Of a stretch of 64,000 nt of DNA, positions 9,500-55,520 are shown piece after piece. This DNA comes from Natronomonas salina (GTDB taxonomy: Archaea > Halobacteriota > Halobacteria > Halobacteriales > Haloarculaceae): positions 2,232,001 through 2,296,000 of the forward strand of contig NZ_CP058335.1 in assembly GCF_013391105.1 (NCBI RefSeq), given 5' to 3'. Made by a program: the position numbers and the translations under genes. The notes under the pieces were generated by a model. It did no database searches. It saw only the letters and a program-made list of their open reading frames with translations, and was not told the DNA's origin. The first letter of the stretch is position 1. Every line of letters starts with the position of its first letter.

Positions 9500-12420
<2,921 letters not shown>

Positions 12421-43496: not shown

Positions 43497-44237
43497 ATGC
43501 TCGACTCCCAGACCTGTCTCGTCACCGGCGCCTCCAGAGGTATCGGTCGCGCTGTCGCGGAGGACCTCGGCCGCCACGGCGCCGAGGTGGTGGTCAACTA
43601 CCGCAGCTCCGACGAGGCGGCTCGCGAGGTCGTCGACGTCATCGAGTCCGAGGGCGGCAGCGCCATCCCCGTCCAGGGCAACGTCGCCGAGTACGACGAC
43701 GTCGAGGCGATGTGCGAGACCGTCCACGACGAGTTCGGCCGCGTCGACGTCCTCGTGAACAACGCCGGCATCACCGTCGACAAGAAGTTCGAGCACATGA
43801 CCCGCGAGGACTGGGACCGCGTGATGGACGTCAACCTCGGCGGCGTCTTCAACTGCACCCACTGCCTCTTCGACGACATCAAGGCCGCCGAGGACGGCCG
43901 GCTCGTCAACATCTCCTCGGTCGTCGGCCAGCAGGGCAACTACGGGCAGGCCAACTACGCGACCACCAAATCGGGGCTCTTCGGGTTCACCCGGACGCTC
44001 GCCCTCGAACTCGCCTCGAGCGGCTCGACCGCCAACTGCGTCGCCCCCGGTTTCGTGAAGACCGACATGCTCGAGACCGTCCCCGAGCGCGTCCAGGAGA
44101 AGATCCTCCAGCGCATCCCCCTCGATCGCTTCGCCACCCCCGAGGACGTCGCCGGCATCGTCCGCTTCGTCGCCGGCGAGGACGCCGGTTACATGACCGG
44201 CCAGATCCTGGCCGTCAACGGCGGCATGGAGTGGTAG
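43497..44237 (+). CDS. 3-oxoacyl reductase of the SDR family (FabG/PhaB-like)
   Basis: An NAD(P)H-dependent short-chain reductase for 3-oxoacyl-CoA/ACP. The 246 residues carry the cofactor motif TGASRGIGRAVAE, the NNAG motif, and the catalytic set: Ser in NISSVVGQQG and Tyr/Lys in YATTKSG. The RSS after the second strand favours NADPH. In haloarchaea such reductases act in polyhydroxyalkanoate supply or lipid metabolism, so the precise role is open. A composite palindromic repeat begins right after its stop codon. Confidence 0.9.
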   Translation: MLDSQTCLVTGASRGIGRAVAEDLGRHGAEVVVNYRSSDEAAREVVDVIESEGGSAIPVQGNVAEYDDVEAMCETVHDEFGRVDVLVNNAGITVDKKFEHMTREDWDRVMDVNLGGVFNCTHCLFDDIKAAEDGRLVNISSVVGQQGNYGQANYATTKSGLFGFTRTLALELASSGSTANCVAPGFVKTDMLETVPERVQEKILQRIPLDRFATPEDVAGIVRFVAGEDAGYMTGQILAVNGGMEW

Positions 44238-44238
44238 A

Positions 44239-44430
44239 CACCCACTTTTTGCACGCTCGGCGCGGCGGTACCGCGCCTCGCGGCAAAAACGTGGGGAAAA
44301 TATGCGCACCCTCCTCCTGTCGCGGGCCCTCACTTCGTTCGGGCCCGCGGTAGTCGTCGGGCGCTACCGTCGCCTCCCTTCGGTCGGCGACGGAGAACCG
44401 CCTCGTGGGCGACCAAAGGTCGCCCACTCG
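44239..44430 (-). repeat. Composite palindromic repeat, copy 1
   Basis: Starting just after the SDR stop, this stretch is the inverse complement of the repeat at 54.5 kb. On the minus strand: hairpin GTGGGCGACC/GGTCGCCCAC (44405-44427), hairpin CCGTCGCC/GGCGACGG (44367-44393) around GACCGAAGGGA, a core TAGCGCCCGACGACTACCGC, hairpin GCGGGCCC (44322-44348) around GAACGAAGTGA, ACAGGAGGAGGG, CATATTTTCCCCACG and a terminal pair TTTTTGC/GCAAAAA enclosing a variable palindrome. It is not protein-coding: only DNA-level identity is evident. Confidence 0.75.
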
Positions 44431-44509
44431 GCGGATACTCACAATTGAAACTGCAGTCAGCTATGCGACCAGGAAAACCTACTACGTCACCTCCGGATTA
44501 CACAGCAAG

Positions 44510-54302: not shown

Positions 54303-54451
54303 GTTCCAGTCGAAGTGTAGGTGCTGCAGACGTATGAGTGACTCGGCGGAACGGTCCGCCTTCCCTTGGTTTCGACCACATTTACCTCGGTTTCGGGTTC
54401 GTTACTCGCTGCCGGAATCAGCCCGGCCGGTCAGGGCCAACATACCAGCAT

Positions 54452-54630
54452 CCGCGCGACCGAAGGGAGCGCGGTTCACGGCGACGAGCGACCGCAGGGA
54501 GCGAGTCGCCGTAGCGCCCGACGACTACCGCGGGCCCGAACGAAGTGAGGGCCTGCGACAGGAGGAGGGCGCGCATATTTTCCCCACGTTTTTGCCGGAC
54601 GGCCGGAGGCCGTCCGTGCAAAAAGTGGGT
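54452..54630 (+). repeat. Composite palindromic repeat, copy 2
   Basis: Plus-strand copy, inverted relative to 44239-44430. In order: CCGCGC/GCGCGG around GACCGAAGGGA (54452-54474); ACGGCGAC/GTCGCCGT around nested GA-GC-GACCGCAGGGA (54478-54512); the core starting TAGCGCCCGACGACTACCGC; GCGGGCCC/GGGCCTGC around GAACGAAGTGA (54530-54556); ACAGGAGGAGGGCGCG; and TCCCCACG-TTTTTGC paired with GCAAAAAGTGGG around a variable GGACGGCC-GGA-GGCCGTCC (54582-54630). The core is over 95 percent identical to copy 1 by eye, while stems differ. Confidence 0.75.
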
Positions 54631-54668: not shown

Positions 54669-55520
54669 ATGAACGTCGCAGACGCCATGACGCCGCGGTC
54701 GGACGTCGTGACCGTGGAACTCCCCGGCACCAGGGACGAGTGCCTCGAGTACCTGCAGGACCGGGGGTTCTCGTCGGTCCCCGTCGTCAAGCAGACCGCC
54801 GGCGGCGAACAGTTCCGCGGCCTGGTCACCCGCGAGTCCCTCATCGAGCAGCCCGACGAGGACCAGCTGGCGCTGCTCGTCCGGGAGGTGCCGACGACCG
54901 AGTCCGCGACCTCGCTGACGGAGCTGGCCGACCTGGTCTTCGAGACCGACGAGCGCCGGGTCCCGGTCGTCGACGACGGCGAACTGGTCGGTATCGTCAC
55001 CGTCACGGACGTCGTCCGCGCGATCGCCGAGGGCGAGGAGGACGGCGACACGGAGGTCGGCGAACTCGCGACGCTGGAGGTCAACACGGTCTACCAGGGG
55101 ACGCCGCTGCCGGTCGCCGAGCGCGAACTGTACCACTCGAACGTCCCCTACGCGGTCGTGCTCGGCGAGGACGGCGGCCTCGCGGGCATGCTCACCGAGG
55201 TCGACGTCATCGAGGTCGCCCGCGTCGTGCAGGGTGAGGACGACCCCGGCGACGCGCTCGCCAACGAGGACGACGAGTGGATGTGGGAGGGCATCAAGGC
55301 GGTCGGGAGCCGCTCCATCCCGACGCTGAACGTCGAGATCCCCGCGGAGCCGGTCACCGAGTTCATGACCGCGGACCTGATCACGGTGACGAGACAGAAG
55401 ACCGCCCGCGAGGCGGCCCAGCTGATGCTCTCGAACGACGTCGAGCAGATCCCGCTGGTCGCCGGCGGCGAGCTCGTCGGCATCGTCCGGGACGTCGACC
55501 TGCTGGAGGCGCTGCGATGA
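54669..55520 (+). CDS. CBS-domain protein with four CBS motifs
   Basis: A 283-residue cytosolic protein made of four CBS motifs in two Bateman modules: DAMTPRSDVVTVELPG, VTRESLIEQPD, VPVVDDGELVGIVTVTDVVR and EFMTADLITVTRQKTA with LVGIVRDVDLLEAL at the end. Such proteins sense adenine nucleotides or S-adenosyl compounds. Its stop codon overlaps the glyS ATG (ATGA), so the two are translated from one message. A link to glycyl-tRNA synthetase control is plausible but not shown. Start ATG at 54669. Confidence 0.92.
   Translation: MNVADAMTPRSDVVTVELPGTRDECLEYLQDRGFSSVPVVKQTAGGEQFRGLVTRESLIEQPDEDQLALLVREVPTTESATSLTELADLVFETDERRVPVVDDGELVGIVTVTDVVRAIAEGEEDGDTEVGELATLEVNTVYQGTPLPVAERELYHSNVPYAVVLGEDGGLAGMLTEVDVIEVARVVQGEDDPGDALANEDDEWMWEGIKAVGSRSIPTLNVEIPAEPVTEFMTADLITVTRQKTAREAAQLMLSNDVEQIPLVAGGELVGIVRDVDLLEALR

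Follow-up and report, generated by a model that had tools for sequence, protein, structure and literature searches.

A lineage-specific family of extragenic DNA-hairpin mosaics at gene ends in Natronomonas, with a putative role as bidirectional terminators

The stretch of 64,000 nucleotides analysed in this study (referred to below as the window; positions 2232001-2296000 of a genome consisting of one 3.75 Mb contig) contains two copies of a composite palindromic element, inverted and separated by about 10 kb, which raises the question of what kind of element this is and why it resides there. Both copies had been located, in inverted orientation, in a preliminary description; alignment and folding yielded slightly wider borders (Table 1). 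Blastn analysis of the two oppositely oriented copies, A and B, aligned 152 bp with 86.8% identity, and revealed exactly two differences in the part from TAGCGCCCGACG to CCACGTTTTTGC, in agreement with the estimate of about two given previously for this core. It was also correctly noted that the final palindrome, i.e. that between TTTTTGC and GCAAAAAGTGGG, does not have the same sequence in the two copies. As regards the overall anatomy, the previously reported order of hairpin, core and palindrome is shared by both copies, but each of them comprises four hairpins (HP1-HP4): what had been described as a long "core" consists of one of these, HP3 (59 nt), together with a linker. Read in the sense of the element, the modules are arranged as follows: AGCATCCGC/HP1, the GCGGTTC linker, HP2, the GTAGCG linker, HP3, the linker GCGCATATTTTCCCCAmGTTTTTGCC, HP4 (held between TTTTTGC and GCAAAAA) and the end GTGCAAAAAGTGGG. 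The RNA fold z-scores of the two copies were -9.0 and -10.1 (versus 200 dinucleotide shuffles), and the DNA fold z-scores of copy B were -6.6 for the plus strand and -6.0 for the minus strand.

Table 1. Coordinates of the element copies, their parts and related features (positions within the window, unless a genome is named)
Feature	Position	Strand	Basis
Element copy A	44241-44439	minus	alignment and fold; refined border
Copy A, HP1 hairpin (GCCGAGTGGGCGACC...GGTCGCCCACGAGGC)	44398-44434	minus	fold
Copy A, HP2 hairpin, GA/GA internal loop and C-GAA-G triloop	44367-44393	minus	fold
Copy A, HP3 hairpin ("core")	44306-44364	minus	fold
Copy A, HP4 hairpin	44241-44295	minus	fold
Copy A, gene-sense T5 tract	44246-44250	sense of fabG-like gene (plus)	
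Copy A, opposite-strand T5	44285-44289	read on minus strand	
fabG-like short-chain dehydrogenase gene, copy A at its 3' end	43497-44237	plus	
Element copy B	54447-54629	plus	alignment and folds; refined border
Copy B, HP1 hairpin, GA/GA loop and C-GAA-G triloop	54452-54474	plus	folds
Copy B, HP2 hairpin, two GA/GA loops and C-GCA-G triloop	54478-54512	plus	folds
Copy B, HP3 hairpin ("core")	54514-54572	plus	folds
Copy B, linker with two plus-strand T-tracts (TATTTTCCCCACGTTTTT), terminator-like	54573-54593	plus	
Copy B, HP4 hairpin, between TTTTTGC and GCAAAAAGTGGG	54583-54629	plus	folds
Copies with promoter-like block upstream of HP1	own genome 513604 (L008), 1470129 (L054), 2473637 (L049); G002 264488 (L143)		
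Own copies with extra module between HP2 and HP3	503478-503785 (L046), 513330-513572 (L043), 2406084-2406325 (L042), 78338-78571 (L045), 3379892 (L059)		
Members of second subfamily	own genome 98399 (L066), 212442 (L068), 375483 (L065), 458322 (L062); also L132-L134		

The statement that the element is present twice holds for the window, but not for the genome, in which copy B gave 47 blast matches and at least 33 HP4 ends belonging to the family were identified. Matches were also obtained by blast in 24 of 40 relatives. In a collection of named genomes, the exact linker pattern was found only in Natronomonas species, in a genome named Halorarius litoreus and in Halobacteriales MAGs. Scanning of the genus with the HP4 pattern gave counts ranging from 0 to about 51 (in G002) and no matches to the reversed control; among others, the genomes taken for N. 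pharaonis and N. moolapensis scored 0, the former identity being our assumption for one of the element-free genomes. In the order as a whole (293 genomes), a pattern very similar to it was almost confined to Natronomonas and one neighbour; single occurrences turned up in a few others. Four genomes of another genus of the family (G043, G235, G246 and G287) each carry one identical HP4-type hairpin (CTTTTTGCACTTCACTCGCGCC...CAGGCAAAAAC). No match to the element was detected in plasmid and phage records at the sensitivity of blastn, and an origin from a plasmid or virus was rejected on these grounds. The open-access literature, to which our search was confined, contained no description of the element that we could find.

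Nearly all of the 30 occurrences of CCACTTTTTGC in the own genome are element ends, which indicates that the T-tract belongs to the element. Single hairpins are not diagnostic, since, across the order, a 15-mer GNA/GA hairpin pattern showed no enrichment relative to its reversed control. A GA/GNA/GA hairpin like those of the element matches at positions 9876-9894 of the window, within an apparent 23S rRNA gene; thus, this motif alone is not DNA-specific. Some variation in the modular structure was also observed. Five own copies contain an extra module (TTCGGAAATCGCC..GGCGATTTCCGCAGCCCATCAGAAGTGCTTCGCACTTCTGAGGACG) between HP2 and HP3, as if inserted into the element, and the members of a second subfamily have HP1, HP2 and the T-tracts in common with the others, carry a different HP4 (GCGAGGAGTGGTTCCCGC..GAGGAAACCCGACGAGTAAAAAG) and are devoid of HP3 (Table 1).

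The main new fact, absent from the preliminary description, concerns the location of these elements: the HP4 end immediately follows a stop codon. Copy A lies 3 bp past the stop codon (44235-44237) of the fabG-like gene, which reads into its HP4 end. With genes called on the basis of codon usage, the caller having been trained on the window, 24 of the 33 own HP4 ends were placed within 8 bp of the stop of the gene reading into them; three more lie within 25 bp of a stop, five are located 39-54 bp upstream of a start codon and one is more than 60 bp away from any called stop. Copy B is one of these five: its HP4 end precedes the start of a CBS-domain gene (54669-55520, plus strand) by 40 bp, a minority placement. 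In other species, 63 of 68 HP4 ends were found within 8 bp of a stop. The value expected under random intergenic placement and orientation is 1.8%, giving a binomial tail of 3e-35 for the own copies and of 5e-104 for those of the other species, although the latter overstates the significance because sister species share sites. None of the called genes is overlapped by an element copy. The codon scores of the occupied genes were above those of 185 neighbours (p = 2e-7), and most of these genes have housekeeping functions: they include those for EF-2, proline-tRNA ligase (NCBIfam), succinyl-CoA ligase alpha, aspartate kinase, EngB, Ndk, proteasome beta, TFB, NuoI and CDP-archaeol synthase.

Analysis of 71 copies, folded as the plus strand, revealed a high uniformity of loops. 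As many as 196 of 261 triloops were of the C-GNA-G type (with A, G, C and T as the central nucleotide in 102, 50, 33 and 11 cases, respectively), and 273 of 308 2x2 internal loops were GA/GA. Within hairpins, 92-97% of the stem levels were paired, compared with only 37-49% for arms taken from different copies; in the case of HP2, 97% of the levels within copies were Watson-Crick or G-A, while Watson-Crick pairing across different copies was 37%. When 25 HP2 apices were aligned, both sides varied in all ten pairs, and the covariation score was 0.595, versus 0.124 for shuffles and no more than 0.154 for slid versions. The hairpins are kept as structures, with conserved loops, GA/GA mismatches and linkers and free stem sequence. 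The preliminary description had assigned conservation to linkers and loops and variability to stems, which is true of the family as a whole, but not of HP3 in copies A and B, whose stems are nearly identical.

The 25 distinct HP2 apices contain no G-U pairs, a figure biased against G-U by the centring rule, which rewarded Watson-Crick and G-A pairs. Free folding of whole elements gave 120 G-U pairs on the plus strand versus 120 on the minus strand. The GNA loop rule is that of extraordinarily stable DNA mini-hairpins (PMC4686876). Taken together, the G-U data and this rule favour a structure kept at the DNA level, but they do not amount to proof, since the same motifs (GNA loops, tandem GA) exist in RNA.

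Comparison of species revealed a turnover of both sites and hairpins. Occupancy was scored at the stops of 14 element-bearing genes; at the orthologous stops the element was present, absent, or present with other hairpins. Occupied stops were recorded for 9 of 12 scored genes in G002 and for 4 of 11 in both G017 and G010; the genomes taken for N. moolapensis and N. pharaonis had none at the 10 stops scored in each. Except for one decayed-looking case (ndk in G017), the empty sites contained no recognisable remnant. The copies of G002 at the scored sites mostly represent its own subfamily, the HP4 foot of which is CGAAC/GTTCG rather than CCCAC/GTGGG. At nine loci common to sister species (approximately 93-95% identity), the flanking genes align smoothly, both linkers and loops are conserved, and individual hairpins have frequently been exchanged as a block (e.g. 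HP4 in L110 versus L117, and HP2 in L107 versus L121). Judging from these alignments, stem turnover consists in the replacement of whole hairpins. The same HP4 stem can be found at more than one locus within a genome, which suggests exchange among its copies. By comparing sister species, one can test directly whether the covariation originates from selection or from copy exchange, and how gene ends are targeted.

The locus of copy A was compared in the same way. Three relatives (G001, G010 and G016) share the collinear arrangement fabG, element, LOG-like gene, pcn; the element at their fabG-LOG junction has its T-tracts in common with copy A, but differs from it in its hairpins and lacks HP3. 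The earlier suggestion that the inverted pair could promote inversion of the 44-54 kb segment finds no support here, since the left border, which was the one compared, is in the common order. In G017 (C1:3418197-3418903) and G002 (C1:2094544-2095255), neither fabG nor its element is present between the neighbour genes; the two were possibly gained or lost together.

A possible function is suggested by the T-tracts. In gene sense, the first T-run lies a median of 8 nt past the stop of the 25 element genes; it lies within 20 nt of the stop in 24 of them, compared with 14 of 185 other genes, a contrast which describes the module and is not an independent test, because the recognition pattern contains the T-run. 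On the opposite strand, two T-tracts are found a few nt apart before HP4 in 64 of 71 copies, and the divergent G002 subfamily has TCTTTTTCATCGAAGTTTTTGCC at the same place, its letters being otherwise different. A T-stretch is the intergenic termination motif of Haloferax volcanii (PMC7237163). Considering this motif and the presence of T-tracts in both senses, including the G002 subfamily, we infer that bidirectional termination is the best-supported function.

We consider it most probable (roughly 0.58) that the elements form a non-autonomous, lineage-specific family of extragenic DNA-hairpin mosaics, which serve as gene-end modules and putative bidirectional terminators. The HP4 module would supply a T5 terminator approximately 8 nt past the stop in gene sense, and the other strand would present two T-tracts behind the hairpin series, so transcription should stop from both sides. 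Whole hairpins are replaced, probably by exchange through the conserved linkers among the many copies of a genome, and new sites would be gained by means of some enzyme or by recombination. Some observations count against this reading. Five own copies, including copy B, precede a start codon by about 40-54 bp, a position at which a gene terminator is less plausible, and most genes of the genome, as well as N. pharaonis as a whole, do without the element. The enrichment of TATA-like boxes before HP1 in a minority of copies and the occurrence of GNA loops and tandem GA in RNA also speak against it. If the terminator function holds, genomes with the element have exchangeable terminators behind their core genes, which would aid the understanding of archaeal termination and provide parts for haloarchaeal genetics.

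An alternative, which we regard as unlikely though worth serious attention, is that the element is a selfish mobile element of the single-strand type, related to IS200/IS605-derived PATEs or RAYT-mobilised REPs, which would be inserted at transcription ends by an enzyme recognising DNA hairpins, the terminator effect being a by-product that lets insertions survive. The preliminary description had already argued against a protein gene or an ordinary insertion sequence, and our data agree with this: gene overlap was not found, the ends AGCATCCGC and GTGCAAAAAGTGGG are unrelated, i.e. there are no terminal inverted repeats, and 71 copies showed no credible flanking direct repeats or target duplications. 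Its suggestion of a non-autonomous mobile element gains from the presence or absence of copies at orthologous gene ends, which supports a non-autonomous dispersed element. Mobility is also consistent with the lack of remnants at empty sites, with copy numbers of 0 to about 50 and genome-specific subfamilies within one genus, and with GNA mini-hairpins on one strand, which fit single-strand recognition. However, Y1 transposases (PF01797) do not track copy number (there are three in the element-free genome taken for N. pharaonis and none in the copy-rich G011, which is 88% complete), and the flanks of Y1 loci lack HP4 and linker modules; a Y1/RAYT mobiliser was rejected for these reasons. The missing short target duplications weigh against mobility as well, though IS200/IS605 types make none either, and insertion alone does not explain a retained site with exchanged hairpins.

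A locus in G003, probably N. moolapensis (L159, C1:2386224-2387024), is worth mentioning in this context. The last 83 bp of nuoI are duplicated there with 97.6% identity, and the two copies (positions 19-101 and 266-348) flank a related hairpin element that points the opposite way; another full element is located before the next gene. This duplication, which would suit a mobile element, recalls the rayt 3' ends captured in BIMEs (PMC2817692). More speculatively, and in our view doubtful, single-strand DNA hairpin cassettes, recognised not by their sequence but by the shape of their loops and GA mismatches, might be swapped and delivered by some enzyme to the ends of active transcription units, and would then constitute an undescribed archaeal mobile-mosaic class. 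If this is true, the terminators of one genome would be rewritten in concert.

It is improbable that the element encodes a structured non-coding RNA, as had been considered earlier, with a plus-strand transcript of HP1-HP3 ending at the two U-tracts before HP4. The position of these tracts after HP3 would fit, and the plus strand is the only one on which the GNA loops and GA/GA pairs are favourable. TATA-like boxes 20-30 nt before HP1 are about twelve-fold enriched, yet they occur in only 12 of 71 copies, and 44 copies of G002 showed a diffuse, partial excess upstream of HP1; consequently, a universal plus-strand promoter was rejected. Just upstream of HP1, a few copies have a promoter-like block (TCAGrkCACGGGCnGTCTGGnC..TATAAA; Table 1). 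This upstream block (GGGCnGTCTGGnC) was rejected as a promoter, since few copies have it and the pattern also occurs elsewhere. A plus-strand transcript may exist for a subset of copies, but it is not a family trait. A search of Rfam with E values up to 1 retrieved no match worth the name (the lone hit was a chance miRNA match elsewhere), and a known RNA family was rejected. With G-U pairs equally rare on both strands, i.e. without the plus-strand excess expected of an RNA, none in the HP2 set and no Rfam match, the RNA reading is not favoured; anchoring of the far end to stop codons would also be unexpected of an RNA gene. It is hardly credible that the family is non-functional debris, i.e. 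palindromes that template switching during replication (quasipalindrome correction) keeps perfect and that accumulate in intergenic spaces, since, even though template switching could replace whole stems at once and the elements are lineage-specific, such correction removes mismatches, yet GA/GA internal loops and GNA triloops predominate, the linkers and T-tracts are conserved across species, and the anchoring to stop codons is far from random.

A mosaic of putative terminators at gene ends invites comparison with known dispersed palindromes. Like MITEs, the element is short, dispersed and non-autonomous, but it has neither terminal inverted repeats nor target duplications. PATEs, which were described from Haloquadratum walsbyi together with IS200/IS605-type elements (PMC3119063), are likewise haloarchaeal and palindromic, and lack a transposase, terminal inverted repeats and target duplication (PMC3119063). 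However, their palindromes lie close to the termini and correspond to those of IS605-type transposons in the same genome, whereas here hairpins fill the element, and the Natronomonas Y1 loci, which were the loci searched, do not contain its modules. With the T-stretch terminators of haloarchaea it shares a T-tract behind the gene, and hairpins can add to termination in these as well (PMC7237163); ordinary terminators of this kind, however, are not dispersed repeats with 180-bp hairpin mosaics, and the element brings its own T-tract, placed much closer to the stop (median 8 nt).

The greatest similarity is to bacterial REPs and BIMEs, which are also extragenic, imperfectly palindromic, mosaic, dispersed and lineage-specific, often lie close behind stop codons and show compensated changes in their hairpins; the capture of a gene 3' end beside the element, found here in one case, is a further likeness. 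In contrast to them, the element is archaeal, combines several different hairpins in a fixed order and orientation, and has its own T-tracts. REPs usually exceed 100 copies per genome, compared with 33 HP4 ends in the own genome and up to about 51 in G002. Their association with a RAYT flanked by the same palindromes was not found for the element. REPs carry a GTAG-type tetranucleotide at the foot of each palindrome; in the element, GTAG(CG) is located at the HP2/HP3 junction only. By analogy, the element resembles REPs/BIMEs in the way it may work, yet it differs from them in defining features, namely RAYT association and copy number. Finally, about 11% of E. coli REPs are located within 15 nt of a stop (PMC12306157), whereas most copies of the element are within 8 bp. 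In this single lineage of archaea, hairpin-forming DNA mosaics are tied to the ends of genes: archaea thus have mosaic extragenic palindromes with conserved structure and free sequence, anchored to stop codons far more tightly than the cited figures for E. coli REPs.
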